From a virus, in IMG/VR virus record IMGVR_UViG_3300044624_000981, positions 1-25,688 of that record: a stretch of 25,688 nt of DNA; one strand, 5' to 3'. The notes under the pieces were generated by a model, which worked only from the letters and a program-made list of their open reading frames with translations, searched no databases and had not been told where the DNA came from. The position numbers were made by a program, and so were the translations under genes. The first letter of the stretch is position 1; every line of letters starts with the position of its first letter. Below are positions 1,559 to 19,829 of the stretch, piece by piece.

Positions 1559-1589
1559 CTTGCTTTTCACCTACCTTTCGATTTTTTGT

Positions 1590-3164: not shown

Positions 3165-3173
3165 CTTAGTTAA

Positions 3174-3182
3174 ATGTTACCA
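3174..3182 (-). promoter_or_regulatory. Extended -10 just ahead of the protease gene
   Basis: The minus strand reads TGGTAACAT, a TGn-extended hexamer of the TANNNT type, ending 9 nt before the protease ATG. The predicted start would leave a leader of about 3 nt, and no Shine-Dalgarno is present. A weak TTGTAT lies 16 nt upstream as a possible -35. Confidence 0.4.
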
Positions 3183-3216
3183 AGTATTTAAAATAATACA
3201 AAAATTTTATTCACAA

Positions 3217-5123: not shown

Positions 5124-5129
5124 ATTGCA

Positions 5130-5138
5130 ATATTACCA
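5130..5138 (-). promoter_or_regulatory. Extended -10 with leaderless spacing
   Basis: The minus strand reads TGGTAATAT followed by six bases (TGCAAT) and the ATG at 5123, so transcription would begin at or next to the start codon. A 12-bp perfect palindrome, ATATTGCAATAT (5122-5133), overlaps the -10 and the ATG. Confidence 0.45.
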
Positions 5139-5169
5139 TTTTCCTATGCTAAAACATAAATATAGAACA

Positions 5170-5199
5170 ATTATAGGACATATTAGTTAGTAAAGTCTA
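5170..5199 (-). promoter_or_regulatory. Possible second promoter ahead of the head genes
   Basis: TAGACT (5194-5199) and TATAAT (5170-5175) on the minus strand are separated by 18 nt. The same TAGACT serves as a plausible -35 at 24278-24283. The -35 lies in the last codons of the LamG-like gene. This could drive the head operon with a leader of about 40 nt. Confidence 0.35.
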
Positions 5200-8100
5200 T
5201 TTCTTCCCACGAAGATGTGACAAACTTTACCTTTGGCAAGTCCAACATCTCAAAATACTCTCCGTTATCATCTCTATAGTATGACTGTGATGTAGGGGTA
5301 TCTTTAACATTTATTGTTCCTCCAGAAACAACTTTTGTTATTTTACCAATTAAGTCTTGATACTTATCTGATACATATGAAGCAATATCGGCTGGGGTAT
5401 TCTCATAAACACAAATCTTGCCGATTGATCCATTTAGAGTATTAAGAACAGATTTATTATTGCCAATATGGATACAGTTATCTATTGCTGTGTCAAAAAC
5501 TACGAATACATGGTAGATTTCTCCAACTAAAATATCTATATTGCTAAGATTAGAAACTATTGATCCATCTATGTACAAATCATAGTCTCCACTTTTAACT
5601 AGGGAGCCGGATGAAAGCACTAGGTTAGTATTTGTTACTCCAGATAGATCAAATATAGTATATTGTTCTGAGGCATTTGGGTATTTATTTATTTTAAATA
5701 CTAGTTCAAAGCAGCCGTAGTCTACAGATTTTGCAGAAATCTTACATCCACTAGATATGCTAGGGATAAACTTTAACCCTAGATTATCGTCATGCGCTAG
5801 TATATTAGTGTTATTAGTTTTTATAACATATGGATCATTAATCTTGTTTGATGATCCATCTAAGTTTTGCAATATCTCAAAATTAGATAGCGATGATGAT
5901 ATAGATGATGAATCTATTGTAGATAGGTATAAATTATTAATTTTAACACTATCATTTAGAGAATCTTCTGTTATGGCAGATACAGAAATATTAACATTTT
6001 CTGGTGCCGTGTAGTTAAATCCAGGTATATTTAAAGATTCTTCAATAAACTCATCATTGACTACAATGTTTAATTTAGCGCCACTATTAAAGGTGATTAT
6101 TGAATTATTTGATGAAGTGAGTTCTGTAGCATCATAATTAAATACAGCCTTTTGAGACACATTAAGGTTTCCGTTGAATCTTGCCATATAAATGCCAGGA
6201 TCATACCAATCTATATCATTAAAATCTGTATAATTATCTATGCAAAAGTTTCTTATATAGTCTGAGAATCCAGCACTTAGTCCTGGTAGATTACCAATAT
6301 ACATAGATGATATATTTTCTATTGATGGGAACTCTAGATCATTAAACTCTTCCCCGCCAACAAGGGCGGATAGTGTTCTATCTGAGAAGTTTAACGCTAC
6401 ATTATATTCTCCATCGCCTAGCGTCATGCTACTAAATAATTCTTCAGGGGCTTGATCATTAAACTCTTTTAGAAGTTGTCCAACAATTTTATCAGACTCC
6501 TTTTTTACTATAAATGCATAATATCCAGTTATTGGTATTAGAGAAAGAATTATTCCATCTGCATTTAAAGAGTCTAACTCAACCTGGAGTCTAACAGTAG
6601 AGAAGGAAGTATTAAAGTAAGAATTAATGTTTTCTACGACAGCATGGCAATCATCTGTAAAAGATATGCCAACGTCTTCTAAATTAAAAGATCCACCAGC
6701 AAGTCCTGACTCTACCAAGATAGGACTAACTTTAGGCATGTATAATCCGTTATTTGTATAAACTAAATTCTGAATATTAAGTTTATTATTTTTTGCTAAT
6801 GTTGTTACATCTATACCATTTACTTGGTATGAGTCAGAATAGTCCGTATTAAATCTGTCCCCGCCATACCTAATTGCAAGATTGTCTGACAGATCATTGG
6901 TAGCATAATTTAGTCTTTTTTGTATTTTATTCCTATCTATTTGATATGGATAAATACCAATTCCAGATACTAACAATGGCTCATAGTTAGCGGTTTTTTC
7001 ATCCCAGGGTAATAGATGCTCTGACTTTTCTAAAAGAATTGCATCAACAAGGAACTTTTCTCCAGCAGAGCCAGAAGATGCTTGATATATTGAGAAGTCA
7101 ATATACTTTGTTCTTGCGTGCGGGGTAAAACTATTATTAATTCTTGTCCACCCGTCTGAATCATCTATAAGAATAGACTCTGTATGCTGACTTATTGGAG
7201 TAGATGAAGAAATTGAATCATATTCATTACACTTTATAGTAATGGTAGATGCATCGTCACCAGAAGGTATTTTAATATATGCAGATGCTTGATATTTCTT
7301 ATAGGACTCTACCCTAATTCTATTTGTTGCTGACATTCCAGAATTAGATACTGCAGCCTTTGTTACTCGTAGGCAGGCAGACCCAGAAAAACTATCTGTG
7401 TTAATTAATGATATTGAAGTACCAGAGCCTATCGCTGCCCACCCATCAGTATTATTTTCTATGGATGGATTGACTATTAAATTCCTTGGCTCAGATGATG
7501 GACCAATAACTATGCTAGGAATTGAGTTTGCATCAGCAATATCATTAAATCTAAAGTTTTCATCTAAAGAAATTGATACTGGGCTTCTATTATCTAAATA
7601 AAGGTCTATGCTTCTATTGAAATATGAAATGGCAAGATAGTGCTGAGAAGTCCAGTCAACTACCTGTATGCTCTCTTTTTTCCCACCAGATTCTATGTAT
7701 AGCCTATCTCTTTCAATATAGCAATCTAGGAATGTTCCAATTTTTACAAGAGAGTGTCTATATGATGGAGGTTTATCAATGGTGAACCAAAAATCTAGCG
7801 TGGCTGGCTTTAACTCTGATCCAGAAATAAATAATTTATATTCATTTTCAATAGTAGCAAACGAGTTCTGGTATAGTTTTAATGCACCGTTGGTTCCAAA
7901 TATTATTGGCTTTGCGTTTTCATGAGCATCCTCATATACATTAATATTGTTATTAGAAACTTCATCTTCTAATTGGAATGCTGTTCCTTCATAAAATTGA
8001 ACATAATCAACTAATAAAGTGTCTCCAATTGATCCAGAGTTCGTGCTTACGACGCCCCATGAAACATAATAGTCATTATCGTTTGGAGTATAAATAAGAT

Positions 8101-8542
8101 CTGTATGATAAATGGTTGTCCATTCATCACTAGAAAGAGTAAATTCATTTCCTACTCTTACTGGTTCTGATAATGTTGATCCACTCTGAGTAGTATAGTA
8201 TTCAATTCTAATGGCTGCATTTCTTGACCCAGAGCCTCTTTTTACTCGCGCAATCATTGTGTATCTTCTGCCTGGATATACTCTAATTCTGCTTCCAGAA
8301 GATATTCTTATTGCTATGGAGTCTGATGCAGTTGCATTTGCAGTTGCCTGTAAGCAGGCGGTGCCAATATATGAATCACTAGTTATTCTAGCAATTGTTG
8401 TATCACTATCAACTGCCGACCATCCAGAGGTACTAGTCTCAAACGAGGACTGATTACTGGTAAGCGAGTTCTCTACCCCAAATTTGGGGGAATCCCAGTA
8501 TCCTGCTGGACGATCTGATAGGATTAACTGTGAATATGACAT
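5183..8542 (-). CDS. Large LamG/carbohydrate-binding tail protein
   Basis: An 1119-aa protein. After the N-terminal MSYSQLILSDRPAGYWD, typical of phage LamG-type minor tail proteins, residues about 25-185 form a CBM4/9-like beta sandwich (SFETSTSGWSAVDSD ... DTLLVDYVQFYEG). Residues about 210-340 form a concanavalin/LamG-like domain (FWFTIDKPPSYRHSLVKIG). A second CBM4/9-like module follows (NLIVNPSIENNTDGW ... KFLVDAILLEKSEH), and at least one more LamG-like region lies downstream. It probably sits at the tail tip or fibre and binds host surface glycans. Start: the ATG at 8542 fits the family N-terminus and has TATAAT six bases ahead; an ATG at 8560 is the alternative, with AAGGG only 3 nt away. 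It separates the enzyme cassette from the head genes. Confidence 0.78.
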   Translation of the reverse strand: MSYSQLILSDRPAGYWDSPKFGVENSLTSNQSSFETSTSGWSAVDSDTTIARITSDSYIGTACLQATANATASDSIAIRISSGSRIRVYPGRRYTMIARVKRGSGSRNAAIRIEYYTTQSGSTLSEPVRVGNEFTLSSDEWTTIYHTDLIYTPNDNDYYVSWGVVSTNSGSIGDTLLVDYVQFYEGTAFQLEDEVSNNNINVYEDAHENAKPIIFGTNGALKLYQNSFATIENEYKLFISGSELKPATLDFWFTIDKPPSYRHSLVKIGTFLDCYIERDRLYIESGGKKESIQVVDWTSQHYLAISYFNRSIDLYLDNRSPVSISLDENFRFNDIADANSIPSIVIGPSSEPRNLIVNPSIENNTDGWAAIGSGTSISLINTDSFSGSACLRVTKAAVSNSGMSATNRIRVESYKKYQASAYIKIPSGDDASTITIKCNEYDSISSSTPISQHTESILIDDSDGWTRINNSFTPHARTKYIDFSIYQASSGSAGEKFLVDAILLEKSEHLLPWDEKTANYEPLLVSGIGIYPYQIDRNKIQKRLNYATNDLSDNLAIRYGGDRFNTDYSDSYQVNGIDVTTLAKNNKLNIQNLVYTNNGLYMPKVSPILVESGLAGGSFNLEDVGISFTDDCHAVVENINSYFNTSFSTVRLQVELDSLNADGIILSLIPITGYYAFIVKKESDKIVGQLLKEFNDQAPEELFSSMTLGDGEYNVALNFSDRTLSALVGGEEFNDLEFPSIENISSMYIGNLPGLSAGFSDYIRNFCIDNYTDFNDIDWYDPGIYMARFNGNLNVSQKAVFNYDATELTSSNNSIITFNSGAKLNIVVNDEFIEESLNIPGFNYTAPENVNISVSAITEDSLNDSVKINNLYLSTIDSSSISSSLSNFEILQNLDGSSNKINDPYVIKTNNTNILAHDDNLGLKFIPSISSGCKISAKSVDYGCFELVFKINKYPNASEQYTIFDLSGVTNTNLVLSSGSLVKSGDYDLYIDGSIVSNLSNIDILVGEIYHVFVVFDTAIDNCIHIGNNKSVLNTLNGSIGKICVYENTPADIASYVSDKYQDLIGKITKVVSGGTINVKDTPTSQSYYRDDNGEYFEMLDLPKVKFVTSSWEEIDFTN

Positions 8543-8548
8543 AGTATA

Positions 8549-8554
8549 ATTATA
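8549..8554 (-). promoter_or_regulatory. TATAAT with leaderless spacing before the LamG protein
   Basis: The minus strand reads TATAAT, then TATACT, then ATG (8542). A transcript starting 7 nt after the hexamer would begin at the start codon. There is no Shine-Dalgarno for this ATG. The -35 region is not recognisable. Confidence 0.4.
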
Positions 8555-8573
8555 TCCCATCTACCCTTAGTTA

Positions 8574-9293
8574 CTATATAATTCCTTCATATATCCAAAG
8601 ACGCTTCTTGGCTAGGTCCGATGCTTCTTTGGAAATATCGTTCGTTATAGCGAATCTATCATTTCTTGCTGCACACAGGGCTGTTACTCCTGATCCACCG
8701 AACGGGTCAAGTACCGTTCCCCGCTTCTTGCTAAATAACTTGATGAAGTGATCTGCTATCTCTATAGAGAAGGCATCCCCTACTCTGCCCAACTTATTCA
8801 GTTCCTGCTCTTCAGGAATATCCATATTATTAAACTTTGATCTGAATATCATCCCCAGGTGCTTCTTGGCAACAAAGTTGTTGATGGGTATTCTCTCACC
8901 CTTGTAGAAGACCATCCATATCTCATGGGTCTTGTGCAGAAACTCTGTTTTCTTAGTGTAGTCCTCCGATAAGTCCCAGACGACATTGCCAAAATACTTG
9001 AATTCGGTCTGCCTGGTTATCAGGTGGCAATAACTGAAGCATGTGGGCGTATTGATGTTTATTACCATTGCTGAGTTATTCTTTAACACACGATACATTT
9101 CTTTAGTGGCAAGCACTAGGGACTCTAGGAACGAGTCCTCGTCAGACACATGGTTAATCTGCTTTCTTGGGTCACCACCATATCTTACAGTATCCACCCC
9201 GAAGTACGGTGGCGATGTAATAATAAGATCGACTGACGCATCTTCTATTGGGAGAAAGAGAGCATCCTCGTTAAGAAAAGTAACCTTACTCAT
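8574..9293 (-). CDS. Beta-class DNA methyltransferase (N4-cytosine or N6-adenine)
   Basis: A 239-aa amino-methyltransferase that transfers a methyl group from S-adenosylmethionine to DNA. The catalytic motif TSPPYFGVD lies near residue 27 and the cofactor motif LDPFGGSGVTALCA near residue 195. The order IV before I defines the beta class, and SPPY rather than DPPY leans toward N4-cytosine. The region between probably contains the target-recognition segment. The ATG at 9293 is chosen because it overlaps the stop of the preceding gene by 8 nt (ATGAGTAA) and gives the usual N-terminus; the longer frame would intrude into that gene. No restriction nuclease is nearby, so it is an orphan enzyme, plausibly protecting phage DNA from host restriction. 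Confidence 0.87.
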   Translation of the reverse strand: MSKVTFLNEDALFLPIEDASVDLIITSPPYFGVDTVRYGGDPRKQINHVSDEDSFLESLVLATKEMYRVLKNNSAMVININTPTCFSYCHLITRQTEFKYFGNVVWDLSEDYTKKTEFLHKTHEIWMVFYKGERIPINNFVAKKHLGMIFRSKFNNMDIPEEQELNKLGRVGDAFSIEIADHFIKLFSKKRGTVLDPFGGSGVTALCAARNDRFAITNDISKEASDLAKKRLWIYEGII

Positions 9294-10014
9294 AGTTTTT
9301 CTTATTCCAATGCATTTTCTTATACCCGCCCTCTTCATGTTTCTTTAACTCTACTAGACTTTTAGATATTTTTTCATCTGTATGATTACTAAACTCTAAA
9401 ACTTCTGAATTCCAATCTTCACGTTTGAACGGCATCATTTGATAAATTGGAGTGCCTGCTTTTATGGTTCCTAAAAATCCTTTGCGAACTAAAAATGGAT
9501 AATTCCCTGGTACAGACCAGGAATCTGTATCAATAATTCCAGTTAGTGATAGTAATGGTAGATTTGGCATATTGTGTGGCTGGGTATATAAAGTACTGTA
9601 ACCTCTAGGGGTAATTGGCTCCCATTGCGTATTCCATACGAACTCTTGTTTATAGTAACCATCACCTATGTCTAGGTAACTAGCGCCAGTTCTAATTTCT
9701 ACTGGCGGTATAGTTGAATTATAATCAACTGACAAATTTCCATCTTTTTCATAGAAAGTTACATCGCACCAAAGTTCTTGTATGTATCCATTCATATACG
9801 GATCAAGGAACGGTAGGCACTTCTTAAACGTCGCATTACTATCCCATTGACCATCTGGGTATCTTGTAACCTCTTTATTGCCATCCTCCCAAATAGGTGC
9901 ATCTTTATACCATTGTGGAATATATTTTTTTGCTGGGCTTGGAGGTGGCACCAACAACTGAGTCTCATAAGAAGATGGAATCCACTTAATTGACTGTGAT
10001 TTTTTATTAAACAA
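9286..10014 (-). CDS. Paralogue A of the three-copy cassette family
   Basis: A 242-aa protein homologous to those at 10576..11334 and 12295..13047. Shared landmarks are PPSPAKKYIPQWYKD near the N-terminus, FKKCLPFLDPYMNGY, PRGYSTLYTQPHN, LTGIIDTDSW, GTIKAGTPIYQMMPFKRE and a basic KK-x-Y C-terminus. The function is unknown. The order PRG..., GIIDTD, aGTPI-x-Q resembles dUTPase motifs 2-4 (PRSG, GxIDSDY, GxRIAQ), hinting at a dUTPase-like beta fold; this is inference. The TTG start at 10014, 1 nt after the dioxygenase stop, is chosen by alignment with paralogue B (MFGSKKQKF versus xFNKKSQSI); the frame could extend to 10116 but would overlap the dioxygenase heavily. Confidence 0.65.
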   Translation of the reverse strand: MFNKKSQSIKWIPSSYETQLLVPPPSPAKKYIPQWYKDAPIWEDGNKEVTRYPDGQWDSNATFKKCLPFLDPYMNGYIQELWCDVTFYEKDGNLSVDYNSTIPPVEIRTGASYLDIGDGYYKQEFVWNTQWEPITPRGYSTLYTQPHNMPNLPLLSLTGIIDTDSWSVPGNYPFLVRKGFLGTIKAGTPIYQMMPFKREDWNSEVLEFSNHTDEKISKSLVELKKHEEGGYKKMHWNKKNYE

Positions 10015-10015
10015 A

Positions 10016-10567
10016 CTACGGCCTATCTCTAAACCATGAAACAATGATAAATTTGGTTCCGCTTGTAACTGGGAGTGCCGCATGTAGATAGATATAGTTA
10101 GATGGAAAGAGAACAATAGATGGGTTGTCAGGTTTTATCTTAAGGTCAAAGTAGGTAAAGTGTGTTTCTCCGCCAGTATAGTCAGCGGGGTTTAGATATA
10201 TGAGAGCAGAGATAACTCTATATGCCTGTGGCGCTGCATCTACATGATAATCATATGAATTGCCAACTCCATATCTCAGCAGATTAAATCCCTCGTCACC
10301 CACAAGACCTACATTGAAGATCTTTGCATAATCACGCAATGCAGGAACAAACTCTGACTTTATCTGCTTTGCTAGGCCAGGGTTTTTTTTGCTTAAAGGA
10401 AACTCTTGACTAGTTCTTATGCTTTGCATCTGATCTGAGCCGTCACCGATCTTGCTTTTATTCCAGTTAAATTCATTAGACTTATCTGCCCAGGACATTG
10501 CCTTATCTGACAAGTCGGTAGAAAATGGATATTGATAAACCCCTGGCCCTAAAATAATCTTGTCCAT
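10016..10567 (-). CDS. Prolyl 4-hydroxylase-like Fe(II)/2-oxoglutarate dioxygenase
   Basis: A 183-aa single-domain enzyme with the double-stranded beta-helix signature. The iron ligands are His and Asp in YDYHVDAAPQAYR and a distal His in YLHAALPV. A basic residue in GTKFIIVSWFRDRP would bind the 2-oxoglutarate carboxylate. LIYLNPADYTGGETHF is characteristic of the P4Hc subfamily. It would hydroxylate a proline or similar residue, using O2 and 2-oxoglutarate. AAGGA lies 5 nt before the ATG. It is flanked by paralogues A and B and is two genes from a GT60-type glycosyltransferase, suggesting a hydroxylate-then-glycosylate pathway. The substrate is unknown; virion proteins are the natural suspects. 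Confidence 0.87.
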   Translation of the reverse strand: MDKIILGPGVYQYPFSTDLSDKAMSWADKSNEFNWNKSKIGDGSDQMQSIRTSQEFPLSKKNPGLAKQIKSEFVPALRDYAKIFNVGLVGDEGFNLLRYGVGNSYDYHVDAAPQAYRVISALIYLNPADYTGGETHFTYFDLKIKPDNPSIVLFPSNYIYLHAALPVTSGTKFIIVSWFRDRP

Positions 10568-10575
10568 AATTATCC

Positions 10576-11334
10576 TTAAGAATACTTCTTCTTTACCCTA
10601 TGCTTCTTCTTATACTCGCCGCCTACAACATTACCGCCCTCATCATAGCGACTACGATCAAACATCTCTGAACCCGCTTTATTAAATCTAATAATCTCAG
10701 GGGTCAACTTCTCTGACCCCTTTTTCCAATCTTCTCTTAGGAAAGGAATAATTTGAACTATTGGAGTCCCAGAGGGGATAGTTCCAGTAAAATTTTCAAG
10801 GAGCATAAATGGAAACTGGACAGCAAGTGGATGGCTATCTGTTTCCACTACACCAGTAAGAGTTAGAAACGGCGATACCTGATTAAATGGGTGGGTAAAA
10901 ATACAACTATATCCTGGCGGAGTCGTAACCAAATAAGGGTTAGTCCACTTAAACGCATATTCACGATAGATACCTTGTGTTGATACTCCCCTAATCTGCT
11001 CCCAGGGATGCATTGTGATTGGCTTATTGGTTGAGGTAATCTCAATCGATTTGTTGTCAGGGTATATTTTACACTCAAGTCCACCCTCTTCATTAATACC
11101 AAATTCAGCATCGTAGCGGGTTACAAGAAAGTACCCTGTAGTCAGGGCATCAAGGACTGGTATGCACTTTTTAATCGTAAAGTCTGGGTTGCTGCCTTCT
11201 GATAGAACTCTCATAGGCTCAATCTTTTTATACCATTCAGCAATTACTCTATCTGCTGGGACCATCTCTACAAGACCATGGGAAGCATGTTCTACTGGAT
11301 GTGCTTCAAACTTTTGCTTCTTACTTCCGAACAT
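10576..11334 (-). CDS. Paralogue B of the three-copy cassette family
   Basis: A 252-aa relative of paralogues A and C, showing IKKCIPVLDALTTGYF, PPGYSCIFTHPFN, LTGVVETDSH and GTIPSGTPIVQIIPFLRE in the same order, and a lysine-rich end (KKKHRVKKKYS). The dUTPase-like GxIDxD position is GVVETD here, so the catalytic aspartate of true dUTPases is not conserved; if the fold is shared, the chemistry is probably not. The ATG overlaps the glycosyltransferase stop by 14 nt, with GGGGA about 8 nt ahead. It lies between the glycosyltransferase and the dioxygenase, and co-translation implies a linked role. Function unknown. Confidence 0.7.
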   Translation of the reverse strand: MFGSKKQKFEAHPVEHASHGLVEMVPADRVIAEWYKKIEPMRVLSEGSNPDFTIKKCIPVLDALTTGYFLVTRYDAEFGINEEGGLECKIYPDNKSIEITSTNKPITMHPWEQIRGVSTQGIYREYAFKWTNPYLVTTPPGYSCIFTHPFNQVSPFLTLTGVVETDSHPLAVQFPFMLLENFTGTIPSGTPIVQIIPFLREDWKKGSEKLTPEIIRFNKAGSEMFDRSRYDEGGNVVGGEYKKKHRVKKKYS

Positions 11335-12295
11335 TCTCTATTCCCCATTTCTCTACTAGACTCTGGATATCAATATTAGCATATTGCTCATAATTAGATA
11401 CAGACTCCTTATTATTAATAAAATAACTATAAATTATTGACTGGATTGAATTCTTGTGCTTTTCAATGATTGGATCGCCAATGTTTTCTCTAGCCCCTCC
11501 ATACTCATTGATATCTGAATAATATAGGTGATACATCAACCCACTTATTGTTGGCTGTATCAATTTATATCCTCTCTGAACCATTTCAATTGACATAACT
11601 ATCTCTTCCTCAAAAAATCGATAAACGAATGGGAAATAGTCTTTATAACTCTCAGCAAACTTACTGTCCGAAAAGATAAATCCAGCGGATACCTTATCTG
11701 CTTTTATATATCGTCTTTGCACATCTTCTTCTGTTAGGTCTTCATTATCCCAGAATGGAAGCATTTCCCAGGTTTTACAAACAGAGCATCCCTCATGCCT
11801 AGCCGAGAATGACTTATCATCTCTAGAGAATGCTGCTTTCATTATTCTATGTGTATCATTTGGCTTTCTATTGTCCATGCCAACACCATTGTATCTATAT
11901 TTTGGTAGATATCCAGTTAACGCGACTCTTTCTCCATATTCCTTAACTGCATCAGAGTATTCAACGATAATTTTTTTATCCCATGATGGAGTAAATAAGG
12001 TGTGAGAGTCTATTTGTAGAAAATAATCTTCCCCATTATATAGAGAGTGTGCTGCTAGGCGACCGAATCCGACCCCAGTATGATTATTAAAATTTTGAGA
12101 TTTAATTTGTACATTGGGGTATTTTTCTAGTTCTGAGCGTAACTTATTTACTTTTTTCTTAGAGTTAAATATAACAGAATAGGCTATACCTATGTGTATT
12201 TCATTTTCCCCGCTGGATTCTGAAAGACAATTGACCACAGTAGGTACTATCTCAGAATCATCTAAGGAAGGAACTGATACGAAAATACTATTCAC
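11321..12295 (-). CDS. GT60-type GlcNAc transferase
   Basis: A 324-aa GT-A-like glycosyltransferase resembling the GlcNAc transferase family PF11397/GT60. Seen: IFVSVPSLDDSEIVPTV at the N-terminus; GVGFGRLAAHSLY; FLQIDSHTLFTPSWDKKI, with DSH in place of DxD as metal-nucleotide motif; KADKVSAGFIFSDSKF; the acidic FFEEEIVMS; and SGLMYHLYYSDINEYG near the end. The GT60 founder, Dictyostelium Gnt1, adds GlcNAc to hydroxyproline on Skp1, and a hydroxylase-like gene lies two genes away here. The GTG at 12295 is preferred (1-nt overlap TAGTG with the previous stop, AAAGAG 9 nt upstream); a TTG at 12319 is the alternative. It probably decorates a virion or host protein. Confidence 0.78.
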   Translation of the reverse strand: MNSIFVSVPSLDDSEIVPTVVNCLSESSGENEIHIGIAYSVIFNSKKKVNKLRSELEKYPNVQIKSQNFNNHTGVGFGRLAAHSLYNGEDYFLQIDSHTLFTPSWDKKIIVEYSDAVKEYGERVALTGYLPKYRYNGVGMDNRKPNDTHRIMKAAFSRDDKSFSARHEGCSVCKTWEMLPFWDNEDLTEEDVQRRYIKADKVSAGFIFSDSKFAESYKDYFPFVYRFFEEEIVMSIEMVQRGYKLIQPTISGLMYHLYYSDINEYGGARENIGDPIIEKHKNSIQSIIYSYFINNKESVSNYEQYANIDIQSLVEKWGIENVRK

Positions 12296-13047
12296 TACTG
12301 ATAACTCTTTTTCTCCCAATTGTTTTCTCTATAATATCCATATTTTACTGATCTAGCCTCACTCCCAAGTAACCCTGAATATTTACTTGAAAATATAGAT
12401 GAATATGCCATCCAACTTTTTCTTTTAATGGGGATAAGTTGTGCAAATGGGGTGCCTGCTGGAATTATTCCATCAAAGTCATCTTTGAGGAAGAATGGAA
12501 GGTTTCCATGTGTCCAGAAAGAATCACTATCGATAAACCCAGTCGTAGTTGTAAATGGTAAGTCAAATCTATTATATGGATGAGTAACCATTAGGCTCCA
12601 CCCTCTAGGTAATCTAACTCCCCACTCACTCTTCCAGATGAAGTGGTTATCCATGTGTCCAGCAGGACGAGGTATTAGTCTTCCAATGTCTCCATGACGC
12701 TCTCCAATAATTTGCACGGTTAAACTAGGTGGAAGAACCTCATAATCACTAATTTTATCGTTGAACGTTACATAGTCAAACGAGACTCCGTATTCATTAT
12801 TAGTAACACGAATGTCATGCCATGTAGACAACATGTATCCAGATATCATGGCATCCAAGAACGGTAGACATGTCTTTAAACCTCCGCCTGCATCGGTGTC
12901 ATTTTTATCAGTCTTCATTCCAGTTTTTTTAGAAATGAACATTTCAGACTGCTTATACCAATCTGGCATATACATCTTTGCTGGATTCGGGGCTGGGAGG
13001 GCATGGCTAATAGCACTTCCAGAAGGAACGAATCTAATTCTCTTCAC
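12295..13047 (-). CDS. Paralogue C of the three-copy cassette family
   Basis: A 250-aa protein starting at a GTG that directly follows the stop of the preceding gene, with AGGGA 6 nt upstream. It shares with paralogue A the N-terminal PAPNPAKMYMPDWYKQ and with both others KTCLPFLDAMISGYM, PRGWSLMVTHPYN, TTGFIDSDSF, GIIPAGTPFAQLIPIKR and the KK-x-Y C-terminus. FIDSD and AGTPFAQLIPI are the closest of the three to dUTPase motifs 3 and 4, but the DY tyrosine and the C-terminal glycine-rich motif 5 are absent. Function unknown. It opens the cassette that continues into the GlcNAc transferase. Confidence 0.7.
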   Translation of the reverse strand: MKRIRFVPSGSAISHALPAPNPAKMYMPDWYKQSEMFISKKTGMKTDKNDTDAGGGLKTCLPFLDAMISGYMLSTWHDIRVTNNEYGVSFDYVTFNDKISDYEVLPPSLTVQIIGERHGDIGRLIPRPAGHMDNHFIWKSEWGVRLPRGWSLMVTHPYNRFDLPFTTTTGFIDSDSFWTHGNLPFFLKDDFDGIIPAGTPFAQLIPIKRKSWMAYSSIFSSKYSGLLGSEARSVKYGYYRENNWEKKSYQ

Positions 13048-13254
13048 TTACTGTCCCTGTACTGGAACGACTACTTGCTGACCATCAATAACTGTGCTGA
13101 ATGCTGTACCATCGAATGTCCATCCACCAGCAGTAATATTATGGTTGCTAATATCTACTATTGTTGGATTGCTCAACATAATTGATGCCATACGATCATC
13201 ATAATTAACTACTTCTACAACTTCTCCGTCGATAACGAATGCAATTGCTTTCAT
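13048..13254 (-). CDS. Small beta-rich protein, paralogue of 13486..13788
   Basis: A 68-aa protein. KAIAFVIDGEVVEVVNYDDR, then IMLSNPTIVDIS and GGWTFDGTAFS, align with IAFVIDGVVEDIIHCNER, LLLSDPVIVEVE and EWTYDEDSNTFS of the gene two positions upstream, so the two are a local duplication. AGGAGG lies 7 nt before the ATG, which overlaps the preceding stop by 4 nt (ATGA). It ends in a Gln-Val-rich strand (QQVVVPVQGQ). Its position after the fibre genes suggests a virion or assembly protein; the function is not recognised. Confidence 0.65.
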   Translation of the reverse strand: MKAIAFVIDGEVVEVVNYDDRMASIMLSNPTIVDISNHNITAGGWTFDGTAFSTVIDGQQVVVPVQGQ

Positions 13255-13493
13255 TTTTCTACCTCCTCTTCATAATTATACCTACCCCATTTATTTAATG
13301 GGCAGTCGGCATTTGGTAACTTTGTTTTTTCTGACATAAAACATTTACAAATTTTACATTGGTGTGTAATAGGAATTAACTTTGGGCAAGCAGAACAAAT
13401 TTCCATTCTTTCTCTTGCTACTTTAGGTGGAACTCTACCAATCTTTTTATTCCATAGGTCCCAGGGTCTGGCTGATCGATTTTCATCAGACAA
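13251..13493 (-). CDS. Small zinc-ribbon-like protein
   Basis: An 80-aa protein beginning xSDENRSARPWDLWNKKIGR. Cysteines occur as CSACPKL, then QCKICKCFMSEK, then ADCPLNKW: two CxxC knuckles plus two further cysteines, suitable for one zinc ribbon. The TTG at 13493 is chosen because AGGAGG lies 9 nt upstream and the start overlaps the previous stop by 8 nt; an ATG far upstream in frame would overlap the neighbour by 90 nt. The PWDLWN start and CK-x-C-F segment resemble small proteins near phage tail and fibre genes, but I cannot name a function. It lies between the two paralogous small genes. Confidence 0.68.
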   Translation of the reverse strand: MSDENRSARPWDLWNKKIGRVPPKVARERMEICSACPKLIPITHQCKICKCFMSEKTKLPNADCPLNKWGRYNYEEEVEK

Positions 13494-13788
13494 TAGACTC
13501 TGCCTCCTCTGGCTTACTAAAAGTATTGCTGTCCTCATCGTAGGTCCATTCGATAGATGCTTCTCTATCTTCAACCTCTACAATAACTGGATCACTTAAT
13601 AATAACATTCCAAGTCTTTCGTTGCAATGAATAATATCTTCAACAACTCCGTCAATTACAAAGGCTATGTGCATCGGAGCCACATTGTGATTTTCATACG
13701 GAGAAGATACTTTTTCTTGGATCTTTGGCGCTCTCTTTAAGTATCTTTCAATTAAATACTTTCCATAAGTCTTCTTTTTAAACATCAT
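13486..13788 (-). CDS. Small protein with basic N-terminus, paralogue of 13048..13254
   Basis: A 100-aa protein. A basic N-terminal extension of about 35 residues (FKKKTYGKYLIERYLKRAPK) precedes a beta-rich domain (MHIAFVIDGVVEDIIH, LLLSDPVIVEVE, EWTYDEDSNTFS) that matches the 68-aa protein downstream. The ATG at 13788 overlaps the cysteine-rich protein's stop (ATGA); the adjacent ATG at 13785 has better spacing from AGGG and could be the start instead. The shared IAFVIDG domain has no function I recognise. Confidence 0.62.
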   Translation of the reverse strand: MMFKKKTYGKYLIERYLKRAPKIQEKVSSPYENHNVAPMHIAFVIDGVVEDIIHCNERLGMLLLSDPVIVEVEDREASIEWTYDEDSNTFSKPEEAESIV

Positions 13789-14816
13789 CCTACCCTAAAT
13801 TCATCTATAGTGTTGCCTTGTGAAGAGTTTGCTGGGGCTACTAGGATACCATGTCTTTTATTTTTTACCGCTCCAGTTGCTGCTGTGGTCCAATCAGATC
13901 CTATTTGAGTCGTATAATTAGCAGTATTAAACGTTCTTACAGTCACGTTATTACCACTTAGGATAACTCTAAAAGATCCAACTACTGCACTCCATGCTGA
14001 ATTTGCTACAGCAGAAATTGTTCCAGTCACATTTTTTATAAGTTTAGTCTGATATGTAGTTGTACAGTTACATGAGAAAAAGAAGAAATTTCCTGCATTG
14101 CATGGAAATGTTGGTGAATTACATTGAGAAGTTGAGCATGTACTGCTATTACATACGCTTGTTGAACATGGATTCCAAGTAACGCAGTTTCCAGAGGCAC
14201 ATGTTCTTTGATTACACGTTGCTGGATTTCTTCCATTGCAGAATGCTGGGTTTCTAGCAGTACAGTTTTTATTTGCAGAACTCCAAGAAATACAGTTAAA
14301 TCCAGCAAATGTGGTGCAATTTCCTAGCGTGAAAGCGTTGCATGTCCAGGTCGTACAGAATGTTGTTGCACAAAATTGCCCACCATTACAGGTGCTAGCA
14401 TTACATTTAGAAGTTAGGCATGTGGAAGCAGCACAACCTGTACTATACGTTACGCACGAAAATCCTTGACATGTCTGACAGGCATACACAATATCATATG
14501 TGGCACCCCACCAGTTATCTGCATCAGAAAGCCAGAAAACAGTACCCGCTCCTGATGCTGGTGTAGAAATTCCAATAGTTACATCTGTATCAAGGAAGTT
14601 AAGGGTCGCTGCAGGATAACTAGATGCTGGTGATGTTGCAGAAGCCTGGTTAGAAGAAATGGACCATGTGCCGCGCCAAACTTTCCAAGCCTGCCCAGAT
14701 ATAGAGCCTAATGATCCATTTGCTCTATTAAATGTGTCAATTACTGTCTTTAAGGCTGCAAGAACATAGAGCCCAAAAGATCTAGCGCCAGCAGAAATTG
14801 AAGAAATAAGAGGCAT
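13785..14816 (-). CDS. Lectin-like tail protein with a 24-cysteine insert
   Basis: A 343-aa protein. Residues 1-110 and 253-343 read as one concanavalin/LamG-like beta sandwich (VIDTFNRANGSLGSISGQAW, FWLSDADNWWGATYDIVY, then TYQTKLIKNVTGTISAVANS and GILVAPANSSQGNTIDEFRV). This domain is split by residues 113-251, which contain 24 cysteines, mostly five residues apart (CLTSKCNASTC, CSTSVCNSSTC). The spacing is mirror-symmetric about residue 180, suggesting an antiparallel hairpin cross-linked by a disulfide ladder and projecting from the lectin domain. The many Asn, Ser and Thr between cysteines fit an exposed spike. It is probably a receptor-binding or decoration protein. The ATG overlaps the previous stop by 1 nt (TAATG). 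Confidence 0.72.
   Translation of the reverse strand: MPLISSISAGARSFGLYVLAALKTVIDTFNRANGSLGSISGQAWKVWRGTWSISSNQASATSPASSYPAATLNFLDTDVTIGISTPASGAGTVFWLSDADNWWGATYDIVYACQTCQGFSCVTYSTGCAASTCLTSKCNASTCNGGQFCATTFCTTWTCNAFTLGNCTTFAGFNCISWSSANKNCTARNPAFCNGRNPATCNQRTCASGNCVTWNPCSTSVCNSSTCSTSQCNSPTFPCNAGNFFFFSCNCTTTYQTKLIKNVTGTISAVANSAWSAVVGSFRVILSGNNVTVRTFNTANYTTQIGSDWTTAATGAVKNKRHGILVAPANSSQGNTIDEFRVG
14064..14480 (-). other. Mirror-symmetric cysteine insert (predicted disulfide ladder)
   Basis: This segment encodes residues 113-251 of the lectin-like protein. Cysteines fall at 113, 116, 121, 128, 133, 138, 143, 149, 154, 159, 167, 175, 185, 193, 201, 206, 211, 217, 222, 227, 232, 239, 249 and 251. 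The intervals run 3, 5, then 7,5,5,5,6,5,5,8,8 on the left arm, a central 10, then 8,8,5,5,6,5,5,5,7 on the right arm, then 10, 2. Ten pairs (121/239 to 175/185) each sum to 360. The two outer pairs fit if the FFFF-containing segment before Cys249 is a five-residue bulge. Confidence 0.8.
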
Positions 14817-15358
14817 TACGCAAACCCCGTTAGCGATCCTAAGGCTATGTATGTTGGATTTGCGACTGTTTTTATTATTGTAAATGAATATACATCAATG
14901 CCAGAAGCATTGCCAGCAGTTGGAGCAGAGCCGCCTTGCCACTCTAAGGTTACAGAACCGCTAGACCCATCAATCTGAAATCCTGTTTGATAGTAAGCAG
15001 TTGAACCATTTGTAACTAAAAATGCACAAGTTATTGCTGCACCTACTGGAAGTATTGAATTTAAAGTGGTAGAAGAATTACCTCTTAAATTAAGCGTCCA
15101 GTTTGCAGAAGCATTAATCGTATAATAAAGTACTGACTGAGTTACAAGATCGAAGTTTACAACCCCAGTCGCTGCAGTCGTAGAAATAGTAACTACCTCT
15201 TCTGGACTTTGAAGTGTTTTATTAGTAAGAGTGTCAGATGTGGTTCTTCCAACCAACGTATCTGTAGATGAAGGTAGAGTTACAGTATTAGCGCCTACTG
15301 TAATTGTTCCAGTTCCTAATTCAAGGGCATTTTTAACTTTAAAGTTTTTGTCTGCCAC
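14816..15358 (-). CDS. Fibre-associated beta-rich protein
   Basis: A 180-aa protein with a GTG start at 15358 and GGGGAG about 10 nt upstream. The N-terminus (KNFKVKNALELGTGTITVG, then TLVGRTTSDTLTNKTLQSP) is the repeat-like shaft sequence seen in many phage tail fibre and hinge proteins. The C-terminal part is a small beta sandwich (YYTINASANWTLNLRGNSST, GFQIDGSSGSVTLEWQGG). It is likely a short fibre or fibre-tip protein. It is driven by an extended -10 that overlaps the stop codon of the preceding fibre gene and ends with a TAATG junction to the cysteine-rich protein. The family is inferred from composition and context. Confidence 0.65.
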   Translation of the reverse strand: MADKNFKVKNALELGTGTITVGANTVTLPSSTDTLVGRTTSDTLTNKTLQSPEEVVTISTTAATGVVNFDLVTQSVLYYTINASANWTLNLRGNSSTTLNSILPVGAAITCAFLVTNGSTAYYQTGFQIDGSSGSVTLEWQGGSAPTAGNASGIDVYSFTIIKTVANPTYIALGSLTGFA

Positions 15359-15390
15359 CTAGTTCACTCTCCCCAGGGTTTGATAGTTTT

Positions 15391-15399
15391 ATTATACCA
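15391..15399 (-). promoter_or_regulatory. Extended -10 overlapping the fibre stop codon
   Basis: The minus strand reads TGGTATAAT, a perfect TGn-TATAAT; its TAA is the stop codon of the 886-aa fibre gene. The predicted start near 15384 gives a leader of about 26 nt containing the GGGGAG of the next gene. No clear -35. Confidence 0.55.
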
Positions 15400-18052
15400 C
15401 GGATGTTCTTACAACCTTAACCGTAGCCGATGTAATGTTGGCATCAGTTATAGTAATTAAAAGTTTATTAGTAACTGGTCCCCCTCCTGGGATAAAACTG
15501 TCTGTGGTTATAGTATATGGTATAGAGCCGCCAGATTCTACTATTCCATACTGAACTATATCAAGGTCCACCGAGGTCATTAATGCTTTGAGTACTGTAA
15601 CTTTAGATGCTTGTTTAATTTGAATTAAATATTCACATGAAGAGAATGATGATTGAACAAACGAATCTATTTCTGTAGCACTCGTAGACGATACAGTTGT
15701 TGTTATAGTATCAATGTATGCTGTTGAGTCAATAGAAAGTCTTTCTGTATCTGCAGTTCCAGTAAATGATGGACTATTGGCAAAAACAAGTGCCCCAGAT
15801 CCAGTTTCATCTGAAATAACCCCTGCTAATTCAGAGGATGTAGTTGCAGCAAACTGAGAAAGTTTTCCAGTTGTTAGTGCAACGTTTGTTATTGCTCCTG
15901 TAGACCCATTGACGCTCAAAACTCCAGCATTGGAAAATTGATTTCCAGTTAATGTTATTCCAGTTCCTGCAGTATATGTTCCAGCACCAGAAAATTGGGT
16001 AAAGATAATTGGGTCTGATCCTACTGTTCCTAAATGCTCTGTTTGTACCCAGCCTGTATCATTATTTACCGTTCCACCAGTTACGAATACAAAGTCCCCG
16101 CCGTCAATTTCTGCGGCTGTATCAAAGTCTGATGCTCTAACTAGGGCCGTTCCATTAAATGTATAAATACCATTTTGAGAATTTGTAGATTGATTCTTAA
16201 CAAGAACTCTCATGTTAGTTGTTAGAGTTACAGAGTCTATTGATGCTGGTGGTGAAGAAAGATCAGAAATATTTGTTGTTGTTGCAGCAGCACAGGATTC
16301 GTGAATATGTAAGCCTTGTGCAACTGAATCAACATATTGTTTTGTTGCTGCTTGTAAGTCTTGTGTTGGGTCTGCATTAAGAGTAACTGTTCCTGGGAAA
16401 GTAACAGCACTTGGCAACGATATAGTTACACTTCCAGTAGATGAAGAGACAGTAATTTGATTTGAGGTTCCTGAAATTCCAGTAACACCAGCATTAGTTA
16501 CTGTTAATGTATCTGTAGTGGCATTGGTAGTAAGAGTAATTCCAGTTCCAGATTCAATTGTTAAAGTATCATCGTTAGTATCTGCAACTATTGTTGACTG
16601 ACCAGATACTGCTATATTTTTAAATATACTTTGGGAAGATCCTTTATCAGTATTTGTAGTGGTGATTGAAATATTTCCTAAATTGGTCATTGTAGCAGAG
16701 CCAGTAATGTCTCCGTCTAAAGTAACCGTTGGATCATTAACATTAAAATCAAGTTTCCCGTTTGTGTCATCATATGTTACAGAAATTCCTGATTCAGTAT
16801 TAGATGAAACCATCCCCCCAACAACATCTTGAACATCTTCTGTAAAGTTTGCAATTGTAGAGGTTGTATGATTATGAGAATCATCTACTACTGCCGCTGT
16901 TAAAGTTTGACTAGTTAGATCTGTGAGAGTTACTGATCCAGTAAGATCTCCACTCAAAGTAATTACGGGGTCTGGTTTATTGGTAGCATTTGTCCAATCT
17001 AAATAATATGAACCTTGTTCGCCATCTAAAAGATCTGCATCTATTCCTGATGATGCTCCATCAACTTCTTTAATTGCATCAACAAGTGCTTGATTCTTCC
17101 ATAAAGAGGTAGAATTATCGTATGAAATAATATGGTTATCTGCAATGCCATTTATTAAAACATTATGAAGTTCATTTAATTCATATCCATTTTGAGGATT
17201 TACAAAGATACGACCAGAAGATGAATTAACGCTCAGGCAGTAACCAATAAATACCGCATGGGCTGGCTGTGTAGGCTTTACATTTGTCAATTGTCCTGCT
17301 GTGGATGATAGCCATAATGCTTGTCCAGCAGTAAAGGAAGATGTATTTATTCCAGTTACAACTCCAAATGTGCAAACAAATCCTTCTAAACCATCTGAAA
17401 TATTCTCAGCAACTACACCGAATGTTTTACTAGATGTTTCTTCTGTGTCCGCATCAGAAAGTGCTAAAGAAGGTCTTTGACCCTGTGCCCCAGAAATATA
17501 AACAACTGAACCTTTTGTTATTGTTGATCCAGTTCCATTAAAGCATAGGGCTATATTTTCTTGACCTATTTCAAGGTTTATATTACCTCCTTTTAGGCCA
17601 AAATTAAGGGTGCCCTCTCCATCATCCCAGGTTAACCTACCTACGGCAGAAGAAATGGTATCTGCAGTATCAAAATCTATAGCGGTAATGTCAAATGCTT
17701 GGTCTGAATCTCTATAAACAATTGTTGATGCTGTGTTAAGTGCAGTAGCATTTGTTGCAAATTCTATAGTATCAGTAGATGATGATCCAGTTATAATCAT
17801 ACCTGTACCAGCATTTAGGGCTAATTCGTCTGTTGAAGAATCTGCTACAGGCCATGTTCCAGATGGTGTTCGTATTGTTTCAAAGGAGTTACTTGAGCCG
17901 CCGCCGCTTCCTGATAAATCATTCCACGCACCATCATAATAAACTCTAATTTTATTAGATGAGGAGTTAAAATATGCATCACCCTCTGAACCAGTTGCTG
18001 GATCAGAGGCAGAAGGTGATAAATTTAATGCTGTTAAAAATCTTTTAGCCAT
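15392..18052 (-). CDS. Long tail fibre protein
   Basis: An 886-aa fibre. The start is the ATG at 18052 with AGGAG 5 nt upstream; the frame continues upstream through a hairpin but without a start signal. Domains in order: an N-terminal MAKRFLTALNLSPSASDPAT segment shared with the next fibre, probably the attachment end; an intramolecular-chaperone-like or shaft region with FGVVAENISDGLEGFVCTFG; a LLDGEQGSYYLDWTN motif common in phage tail fibres, followed by repeats of the GDLTGSVTLTDL / GDITGSATMTNL type; the TKQYVDSVAQGLHIHESCA module; and a C-terminal beta region (TIVKVV-like strands ending KVVRTSVV). It is likely a trimeric receptor-binding fibre. Confidence 0.8.
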   Translation of the reverse strand: MAKRFLTALNLSPSASDPATGSEGDAYFNSSSNKIRVYYDGAWNDLSGSGGGSSNSFETIRTPSGTWPVADSSTDELALNAGTGMIITGSSSTDTIEFATNATALNTASTIVYRDSDQAFDITAIDFDTADTISSAVGRLTWDDGEGTLNFGLKGGNINLEIGQENIALCFNGTGSTITKGSVVYISGAQGQRPSLALSDADTEETSSKTFGVVAENISDGLEGFVCTFGVVTGINTSSFTAGQALWLSSTAGQLTNVKPTQPAHAVFIGYCLSVNSSSGRIFVNPQNGYELNELHNVLINGIADNHIISYDNSTSLWKNQALVDAIKEVDGASSGIDADLLDGEQGSYYLDWTNATNKPDPVITLSGDLTGSVTLTDLTSQTLTAAVVDDSHNHTTSTIANFTEDVQDVVGGMVSSNTESGISVTYDDTNGKLDFNVNDPTVTLDGDITGSATMTNLGNISITTTNTDKGSSQSIFKNIAVSGQSTIVADTNDDTLTIESGTGITLTTNATTDTLTVTNAGVTGISGTSNQITVSSSTGSVTISLPSAVTFPGTVTLNADPTQDLQAATKQYVDSVAQGLHIHESCAAATTTNISDLSSPPASIDSVTLTTNMRVLVKNQSTNSQNGIYTFNGTALVRASDFDTAAEIDGGDFVFVTGGTVNNDTGWVQTEHLGTVGSDPIIFTQFSGAGTYTAGTGITLTGNQFSNAGVLSVNGSTGAITNVALTTGKLSQFAATTSSELAGVISDETGSGALVFANSPSFTGTADTERLSIDSTAYIDTITTTVSSTSATEIDSFVQSSFSSCEYLIQIKQASKVTVLKALMTSVDLDIVQYGIVESGGSIPYTITTDSFIPGGGPVTNKLLITITDANITSATVKVVRTSVV

Positions 18053-18067
18053 ATTAACTCCTATTGT

Positions 18068-18097
18068 TAAGTGTGGGGGTCGAAACCCCCACACTTA
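18068..18097 (-). terminator. Strong hairpin with UUCG loop between the two fibre genes
   Basis: A perfect 13-bp stem (TAAGTGTGGGGGT / ACCCCCACACTTA) closes a TTCG tetraloop on the minus strand. It starts 5 nt after the stop codon of the upstream fibre gene and ends about 7 nt before the AGGAG of the downstream one. There is no U-tract on either strand, so it is either a U-less terminator, as described in actinobacteria, or an RNA-processing/stability element. Confidence 0.6.
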
Positions 18098-18102
18098 CAA
18101 AA

Positions 18103-19158
18103 TTATCCTACTATAACTACCTTGTAGTTTGTTCCTGTAGCGACATTGCTTGCAAACTTAATGGTAACAACGCTTGTGCTTGTTCTTTCTATATCAACCT
18201 CTACTGTATCGTATGGTGATGCAGCATCATAAACTTGCACCTGTACTTCTCTAGTTCCTAAATTATGTGTAATAGCAAAAGAAGAATTTGTGCTATCTCC
18301 AGTTACATCACCAGTAAACTTACGAACCATATCGAAGTAGGTTGAACCGTTATTTGTAAATGTCCACTTATCGGAAGTCTCGTTCCATAAAATAGAAACA
18401 TTATCAGATGTGCCGCGCTCAACTTCAATTCCAGCATCTAGTGATGGTGATCCAGTAACACCAGAATTTAGAACAACTGTATTATCTTCTACTGCAAGAT
18501 TTGTTGTATTAAGAGTAGTTGTTGTTCCATTTACTGTAAGATCTCCAGTAACAATTAAACTATTGTTTACGGTTGTATTACCACTATTAGCACCAATTGA
18601 TATTGTGCTTGCTGCTCCACCAATATTTAATGTTGTTGCATTAGCATTAAAAAGTGTTGCAGTTCCTGTTACTGTAGTGGTAAGATCTCCACCATTAACA
18701 GCGACATCTCTAGAGAATGTACCTCCAGAGAAAGAAACTGAATCTGATGTTCCAACTGCCTGACCAATTGCAACTGTTGGACTCCATCCTTCTCCTGCAG
18801 TTCCAGTAACTGTTACTCCAGTTCCACCTGTAATGTCATTTACATAGTTTCCTGTAGTATCTGTTCCAAGTGCTACGGAGTTAGAAGCAATTGTTGTGCT
18901 AATAGTAATTGTTCCAGAAGAAACATTTGCTGTACCAGTTACGTCACCTTCTAATGTAACTGTTGATGCAGCACTTCCTCCAATTGCTAATGGCTGCCAT
19001 GTAGTGCCATCATAAATCTTTAACTTATTATTTGTTGAATCAAAGTAGACCCGACCCTTTACGCCAGTAGGCTCAGAAGCCGCTGGCAGATTTTGAATTA
19101 CGGCATTCTGCAATTCATTGGTGCCGAGGTCTAAACTAACTAAAAATCTCTTAGCCAT
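18103..19158 (-). CDS. Tail fibre protein with MAKRFL N-terminus
   Basis: A 351-aa fibre. It begins MAKRFLVSLDLGTNELQNAV, paralogous to the start of the 886-aa fibre, then GRVYFDSTNNKLKIYDGTTW. The shaft holds GDVTGTANVSSGTITIS repeats and the modules GDLTVNGTTTTLNTTNLAVE and AGIEVERGTSDNVSILWNE, which recur in phage tail fibres. The C-terminal domain (FAITHNLGTREVQVQVYDA ... GTNYKVVIVG) resembles the C-terminus of the collagen-like protein upstream. AGGTGG lies 8 nt before the ATG. The shared N-terminus implies that both fibres dock on the same virion site. Confidence 0.77.
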   Translation of the reverse strand: MAKRFLVSLDLGTNELQNAVIQNLPAASEPTGVKGRVYFDSTNNKLKIYDGTTWQPLAIGGSAASTVTLEGDVTGTANVSSGTITISTTIASNSVALGTDTTGNYVNDITGGTGVTVTGTAGEGWSPTVAIGQAVGTSDSVSFSGGTFSRDVAVNGGDLTTTVTGTATLFNANATTLNIGGAASTISIGANSGNTTVNNSLIVTGDLTVNGTTTTLNTTNLAVEDNTVVLNSGVTGSPSLDAGIEVERGTSDNVSILWNETSDKWTFTNNGSTYFDMVRKFTGDVTGDSTNSSFAITHNLGTREVQVQVYDAASPYDTVEVDIERTSTSVVTIKFASNVATGTNYKVVIVG

Positions 19159-19173
19159 TTATTATTCCACCTC

Positions 19174-19491
19174 TCATGATAAATATGCCTTTCCAGCGAA
19201 AGGGTCTGCGAATGTAGCAACTACTGTATTGATATTTGTAAACTCATAACTTCCAATTACAGAAGTTCCAGCAGAGTCAATAATTTCTACATTGGGATAG
19301 AATCCTAGATTATGGTTGATTGTCCATGTACTTGATGCAGTTCCCTGTGTATGAACATAAGATCCTATACCTGGATCTCCTTGTGGACCCTGTGGGCCTT
19401 GTGGACCCTGAGTACCCTGTGGTCCTTGAACGCCAACAGCATCTACAATTACATTATTTTCTGTTAATTGTACATTTACATTATTGGTCAT
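19174..19491 (-). CDS. Collagen-like stalk protein
   Basis: A 105-aa protein in three parts: a short N-terminal segment (residues 1-19), seven Gly-X-Y triplets (residues 20-41, GVQGPQGTQGPQGPQGPQ then GDPG), and a beta-rich C-terminal domain (WTINHNLGFYPNVEIIDSAG ... TVVATFADPFAGKAYLS) related to the end of the next fibre. Triplets of this kind form a trimeric triple helix that acts as a rigid stalk in phage tails. It has an ATGA overlap with the upstream gene. With four Gly-Pro-Gln triplets and one Pro in the Y position, it is a candidate substrate for the hydroxylase at 10016..10567; that link is inference. Confidence 0.78.
   Translation of the reverse strand: MTNNVNVQLTENNVIVDAVGVQGPQGTQGPQGPQGPQGDPGIGSYVHTQGTASSTWTINHNLGFYPNVEIIDSAGTSVIGSYEFTNINTVVATFADPFAGKAYLS
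19366..19434 (-). repeat. Gly-X-Y collagen-like coding repeat
   Basis: Degenerate 9-bp tandem units (CCTTGTGGA, CCCTGTGGG and variants on the plus strand) encode seven Gly-X-Y triplets, four of them Gly-Pro-Gln. Codons vary between copies, so selection acts on the protein rather than on a recently expanded DNA repeat. Confidence 0.8.
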
Positions 19492-19829
19492 CGTACCACC
19501 GCAGGATAAACAGATAGGAATCCTTTAAGTATTGTTGTGTATTGCCCACCAATACTAGCAATTTGTAGTTGGTAGGCAGCAGAAGGAGTAGTAAATCTTC
19601 TTGTTTGTGCTGGGCTAAATGTTATTAATAAAACTCCAGTTGATCCATTAATAGTTATACCATTTCCATTTGTGACTGATGCACACAAAATTTTTCCAGC
19701 GGGTTCATTTCTTACATCCATCCTAGCAGAATAGTTATTTAAATTTATTGCTGTTCCATTAGGATTTGTGTAAGTGACTTGAATGCTGAAAGTATCACCC
19801 TGTACAACTTTAAAGTTTACATCTTCCAT
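19488..19829 (-). CDS. Small beta-sandwich virion protein
   Basis: A 113-aa protein. FKVVQGDTFSIQVTYTNPNG, INLNNYSARMDVRNEPAGK, GVLLITFSPAQTRRFTTPSA and a final strand pair (TTILKGFLSVYPAVVR) form the pattern of small Ig-like or baseplate/fibre-adaptor proteins that often precede fibre genes. The ATG at 19829 is preferred (AGAGGTG about 9 nt upstream); a GTG at 19841 is possible. It heads the fibre operon, directly after the lysin terminator and an extended -10 promoter. Its likely role is linking fibres to the tail; this is inferred from position. Confidence 0.65.
   Translation of the reverse strand: MEDVNFKVVQGDTFSIQVTYTNPNGTAINLNNYSARMDVRNEPAGKILCASVTNGNGITINGSTGVLLITFSPAQTRRFTTPSAAYQLQIASIGGQYTTILKGFLSVYPAVVR

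Follow-up and report, generated by a model that had tools for sequence, protein, structure and literature searches.

The DNA analysed here, called the window throughout, is the whole 25,688-nucleotide stretch of the viral record IMGVR_UViG_3300044624_000981 in IMG/VR, and the subject of this study is one of its genes, a 343-amino-acid open reading frame on the minus strand (13785-14816) that encodes a lectin-like tail protein with a cysteine-rich insert. All 24 cysteines of the protein lie within residues 113-251 (14064-14480), at positions 113, 116, 121, 128, 133, 138, 143, 149, 154, 159, 167, 175, 185, 193, 201, 206, 211, 217, 222, 227, 232, 239, 249 and 251. The intervals between them read 3,5,7,5,5,5,6,5,5,8,8,(10),8,8,5,5,6,5,5,5,7,10,2, and the inner nineteen (7,5,5,5,6,5,5,8,8,(10),8,8,5,5,6,5,5,5,7) form a mirror about residue 180. 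The left, ascending arm (residues 113-175; 14292-14480, minus strand) holds twelve cysteines and the eleven intervals before the bracketed 10, and the right, descending arm (residues 185-251; 14064-14264, minus strand) holds the other twelve cysteines and the eleven intervals after it. Between the two lies a predicted hairpin tip, residues 176-184 (ISWSSANKN; 14265-14291, minus strand), which aligns with a motif that relatives conserve at their tip, NSANxGNxAPPxGF. The spacing predicts ten rungs, 175/185, 167/193, 159/201, 154/206, 149/211, 143/217, 138/222, 133/227, 128/232 and 121/239, the positions of which each sum to 360, and two further rungs, 116/249 and 113/251, which do not and which would need a bulge.

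The symmetry is one of spacing and not of DNA, since the DNA of the insert contains neither an inverted nor a tandem repeat. The sole notable similarity between the arms is one 24-nucleotide direct, same-sense repeat (14118-14141 against 14400-14423, 88% identical), which joins Cys133-138 to Cys227-232. When the 23 intervals were permuted, as the first-pass annotation of the sequence had proposed, a mirror run of at least nine was reached in 3 of 1,000,000 shuffles, and the corresponding p is about 2e-4 once the 60 members of the family described below are allowed for. The palindromic intervals about residue 180, the ten pairs summing to 360 with the outer two off, and the difference in sequence between the arms, which precludes a DNA palindrome, had all been claimed in that annotation, and each was confirmed.

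The core of the protein is better defined in structural terms. In the AlphaFold model computed with 48 relatives, everything outside the insert is a beta-sandwich with a predicted local distance difference test score (pLDDT) above 90, and the insert is flanked by two long strands, 101-113 and 251-263. The N-terminal part of this sandwich comprises residues 19-112 (14481-14762, minus strand), with strand 101-113 leading into the insert, and the C-terminal part comprises residues 252-343 (13788-14063, minus strand), with 251-263 as the return strand. Its fold matches include the tip of the Douge central fibre (8ZDP, 162 residues, Z 17.5), CBM66 (Z 17; 4b1m, Z 17.1) and, at Z 15.6, the TM4 receptor-binding domain, and a library of viral models gave matches to uncharacterised proteins of uncultured phages (19-28% identity) and to minor tail proteins of actinobacterial phages. 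No immunoglobulin domain is present among the 50 fold matches listed, the best of which are carbohydrate-binding module (CBM) or lectin sandwiches, an absence there that does not exclude one. The model shows a concanavalin-A-like, CBM66-type beta-sandwich with an insertion between two strands, in keeping with the initial suggestion that the insert extends from a loop of a lectin-like sandwich.

Direct searches with the 343-residue protein or with its core gave no match in IMG/VR, in genome contigs or in a collection of isolated phages. Relatives were reached instead via the neighbouring 180-residue gene, which gave two of them first, and the alignment of these led to 76 loci. With the present protein counted, these loci give 60 distinct proteins, which fall into 30 clusters at 60% identity; the 59 others, all from IMG/VR, have the same lectin-like core with a cysteine-rich insert at the same place, and every member keeps, in its core, a motif that can be written [TS]DxNNW[WY], followed by the insert and then the return strand. 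Later alignment scans of the family recovered mostly the same contigs. A DNA scan for seven cysteines at spacing 5,5,5,6,5,5 returned mostly unrelated repeats and out-of-frame low-complexity reads, and a scan for tandem NPxxCN motifs gave no new family member. None of 48 family members had a PHROG match, and their Pfam matches were weak and at chance level. The first-pass annotation knew of no named family with this architecture, and neither these profile searches nor the literature supplied one. No earlier description of such a phage arm was found in the literature, in which coverage of subscription papers was poor, and for phages the predicted laddered arm seems to be undescribed so far.

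The mirror order extends to the family. Under an exact single-centre mirror test, significance was reached by this protein, L203 and L209 alone, so that a bulge-tolerant test of mirror order was used. Across the 21 clusters with at least 12 cysteines this test gave a Fisher p of 4e-9, and of 1.5e-7 without this protein, against 0.18 for a translation control in which the arms are compared in the same direction. With the tip set by an independent sequence motif, the cysteine counts of the two arms are 12/12, 12/12, 11/11, 11/11, 8/8, 11/11 and 13/11. The number of cysteines in the insert, with those outside it in the L222 group and in L242 set aside, ranges from 4 to 30 and is even in all 60 proteins; counts of 6, 10, 14, 18, 22, 26 and 30 occur as commonly as multiples of four. 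Such even counts, often not divisible by four, favour intrachain disulfides over metal sites or free thiols. Odd and equal counts per arm, 11/11 and 9/9, are found among L192, L193, L195 and L203, and these need cross-arm bonds if all cysteines pair within the chain. On these comparisons the antiparallel course of the predicted arms is strongly supported, and the presence of disulfides in the arm is supported by parity; bonding rung by rung across the arms, and the rigidity that the arm would possess, are inferred.

Comparison of close relatives points in the same direction. L202 and L209 (63% identity) show a three-residue difference in each member of one mirrored rung, and each of their arms differs by one cysteine. 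Around the centre, the spacing is 8|13-14|8 in L208, L214 and L218 and 10|11-14|10 in L220, L221 and L226. Between L191 and L193 the difference is 14 residues and two cysteines per arm, near the tip; L207 has three blocks on each arm where L237 has two (3+3 against 2+2); and L216 has lost one cysteine per arm relative to L212. In L191 and L194, the cores of which are 81% identical, the arms appear to be exchanged: the left arm of L191 resembles the right arm of L194 (z 4.6) and its right arm the left arm of L194 (z 10.3), whereas like arms are not significantly similar (z 1.6 and 0.2). In five of seven close relatives, the motifs xGxCxxW/F and NPxxC[NS] occur equally often and on opposite arms (3/3 in L191 and L195, 2/2 in P0001, 1/1 in L192, and L194 with the arms swapped), and this pairing fails in L193 and L199. 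In L202 the modules of the left arm stand in the order X,Y and those of the right arm in the order Y,X. This module order, the arm swap and the motif pairing fit blocks of two paired strands.

Several observations weigh against a uniform ladder of this kind. Exact spacing is unequal in most homologues, the arms of L199 hold 13 and 11 cysteines, with two extra on one arm, and between L205 and L212 there is a one-residue difference confined to a single arm. The paired changes were picked by eye from close pairs, with no single formal test. In a regular antiparallel ribbon, an interval of 5 places successive rungs on opposite faces, with hydrogen-bonded and other sites alternating; intervals of 5 are hard to accommodate in a regular flat ribbon, so that the backbone cannot form a plain beta-ladder over its whole length and local twists or bulges are to be expected. 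The arm is left unmodelled by AlphaFold, with residues 124-243 almost wholly below a pLDDT of 50 (about 40), and a run with seven close relatives only gave a pLDDT of 31. Lastly, L222, L227 and L246, which have the same core, fit translation better than mirror order (median p 0.001), and some other relatives with this core fit neither. L259 (2382-4343), again with the same lectin core, has by eye a translation-like cysteine pattern, and these four proteins possibly represent a different use of the same insertion site.

The initial interpretation of the locus is therefore partly supported. Its antiparallel hairpin is upheld by the mirror test, the even parity, the paired changes and the arm swap. 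Exact equidistance, which it had considered a requirement, gives way to unequal bulges or a shifted register in most homologues and, judged from the spacings, is peculiar to this protein. The check that it had proposed, whether insertions and deletions occur in pairs at equal distance from the centre, gave changes that often affect both arms, and also at least two one-armed changes (L199, and L205 against L212), of the type that it had named as evidence against the hairpin. Structure prediction, which it had also proposed, resolved the core and not the arm.

Four other explanations of the spacing were weighed. The one that survives best, although we consider it unlikely, is that the arms are antiparallel and the disulfides are mostly local within each arm, forming small loops in two rods, with the mirror as a consequence of packing. 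Which cysteine is bonded to which does not follow from mirror order and paired changes alone, and local CPSGGxxSGxxC loops are found in some relatives; however, the 11/11 and 9/9 arms cannot close within themselves, and single cysteine losses occur one per arm (L202/L209, L212/L216). A tandem-repeat solenoid, with a short repeat of 5, 8 or 13 residues and the mirror as a by-product of few interval types, is less plausible still. It would be consistent with intervals that are mostly 5 and 8, with the plain tandem array that L259 presents to the eye and with the fit of L222, L227 and L246 to translation, but the permutation keeps the interval types and nevertheless reached the run in just 3 shuffles per million, the clusters favour mirror order and not translation (4e-9 against 0.18), and this protein has no tandem repeat in its insert DNA and a pT of 0.08 in the translation test. 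We give very little credence to a rod lined with metal-binding cysteines, as zinc sites or iron-sulfur clusters: the density of cysteines is high and CxxC and CxC occur near the base, yet in this protein these motifs are confined to the base of the arm, the counts are all even and as usual outside the multiples of four as among them, and the protein looks extracellular from its fibre fold. Chance symmetry in a single cysteine-rich protein, to which the lack of exact symmetry in most other members might point, is scarcely credible in view of the 3 per million and of a mirror order in the family that persists at 1.5e-7 without this protein.

The surroundings of the gene are those of a tail module. 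Its start codon overlaps the stop codon of the upstream 180-residue gene (phrog_5906; 14816-15358, minus strand), which also adjoins it in the close relatives L191, L193, L194, L195 and L199, and its 3' end overlaps the next gene by 4 nucleotides. Proteins that match tail or virion PHROGs and a collagen-like fibre protein are encoded farther upstream; the gene thus sits among tail and fibre genes, in an order conserved in close relatives. The portal protein of the window is about 60% identical to portals of Streptomyces phages, which makes an actinobacterial host likely. In DNA alignment with phage L195, identity is 86.8% over 14765-19821 and 93.8% over 7375-8554, and the 6.2 kb between them (8555-14764, minus strand) are replaced, one edge of this variable cassette lying about 50 nucleotides inside the gene. 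Between L193 and L194, identity is 85% in the core and 25% in the insert, and the DNA alignment breaks just over the insert. A replaced cassette together with a variable insert has the look of a receptor-binding cassette under selection.

Other genes of the region are recorded here in their own right. The replaced cassette encodes a 2-oxoglutarate-Fe(II) oxygenase resembling prolyl-4-hydroxylase (PF13640; 10016-10567) and a glycosyltransferase of the N-acetylglucosamine (GlcNAc) family PF11397 (11321-12319), a pair that recurs beside the gene in L192, L194, L195 and L199, and the tail cluster encodes a collagen-like protein (GPQGPQGPQG; 19174-19491). PF11397 includes a hydroxyproline GlcNAc-transferase, so that prolines of the phage fibre or of the NP-rich ladder may become hydroxylated and glycosylated by phage enzymes. 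The cassette also contains three paralogues of phrog_7084, a group of unknown function (9286-10116, 10576-11334 and 12295-13047), and a protein of 1125 residues (5183-8560) has two stretches matching the carbohydrate-binding family CBM_4_9 (PF02018). Elsewhere, L035 (minus strand, about 1395-3977) and L111 (minus strand) code for very long proteins that have no relation to the lectin and no known function; these open with a similar segment, GAQLHxPxxxADDIL, and end in dense CCT/CCTD repeats with more than 50 cysteines per 100 residues. L026 (minus strand, 2745-7732) encodes two proteins of about 1000 residues made up nearly wholly of threonine-rich repeats (TTTTFNTSRST), one of which ends in an apparent Hint-type domain, a guess by eye.

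We propose that the protein is probably a receptor-binding tail lectin bearing a hypervariable disulfide-laddered hairpin. It would be the receptor-binding module of a tail fibre, built on a beta-sandwich of carbohydrate-binding type, as the model and the fold matches show, in which a hairpin arm of about 140 residues has grown out of the short turn between strands 101-113 and 251-263. The two halves of this arm would run antiparallel, in line with the mirror order, the paired changes and the arm swap, and, once the virion has left the reducing host cytoplasm after lysis, each cysteine would bond its mirror partner on the other arm to give up to 12 rungs. These cross-links would stand in for a hydrophobic core and leave the residues between rungs free to vary. 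The arm would evolve by gaining, losing and exchanging paired two-strand modules on a conserved lectin base that anchors it, and its likely task would be to extend to, and attach to, a variable structure on the surface of an actinobacterial host.

It can be hypothesised, more tentatively, that this adhesin arm consists of interchangeable two-strand modules, each a matched pair of short cysteine motifs, one per arm, joined by cross-strand disulfides, and that it grows, shrinks and flips by whole rungs (1/1, 2/2 or 3/3 copies; A/B to B/A) on a conserved lectin base. On the same tentative footing, such an arm would let host recognition diversify rapidly on a covalently zipped scaffold, to an end comparable with that of antibody loops. 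If the laddered hairpin is correct, it is a long arm the fold of which can be read from spacing alone, with up to a dozen cross-strand disulfides in place of a hydrophobic core, and a means by which a virus keeps a conserved binding domain and varies a long, covalently stabilised arm. How matched changes come about in two stretches of a gene that lie far apart would then be a question of its own, and the design of stable hairpins would gain a template. The arm also provides a benchmark for structure prediction, which here did not succeed on it.

Among known systems, CBM66 and related concanavalin-A-like carbohydrate-binding modules share the core fold (Z 17), glycan binding being only putative in the present protein, and we know of no laddered hairpin in these modules. 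The C-terminal tip domain of Douge gp20 (8ZDP) and the receptor-binding domain of TM4 gp23 (9N6A) have the same core beta-sandwich (Z 17.5 and 15.6) and the same location in the receptor-binding part of the tail, but only 7-13% sequence identity, and a cysteine-rich insert is not known to us for either. The Douge domain binds mycobacterial, that is host, cell-wall glycans (PMC13033339). As regards the predicted ladder, parallel disulfides join two antiparallel strands in a cystine ladder of three in theta-defensins (PMC10096437), and the cystine-ladder-like motif of algal HAP2, also with three disulfides, has been inserted into one loop of a larger beta protein (PMC6327110), as has the arm described here. 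The theta-defensins are head-to-tail cyclic peptides of 18 residues and the HAP2 motif has 37, whereas the arm is a linear stretch of 139 residues, inserted into a larger protein, with up to about 12 predicted disulfides; there is no homology, and modular paired growth is not described for either of them. The nearest functional analogue is the ultralong third complementarity-determining region of bovine antibody heavy chains (CDR H3), a long arm of variable cysteine number and pattern that arises from one loop of a beta-sandwich (PMC5994613). It is built on a non-homologous immunoglobulin fold, reaches up to 70 residues and places its disulfides in a knob on a ribbon stalk with no mirror spacing, and it shares with the phage protein the principle of a cysteine-diverse arm raised on a single loop of a beta-sandwich.
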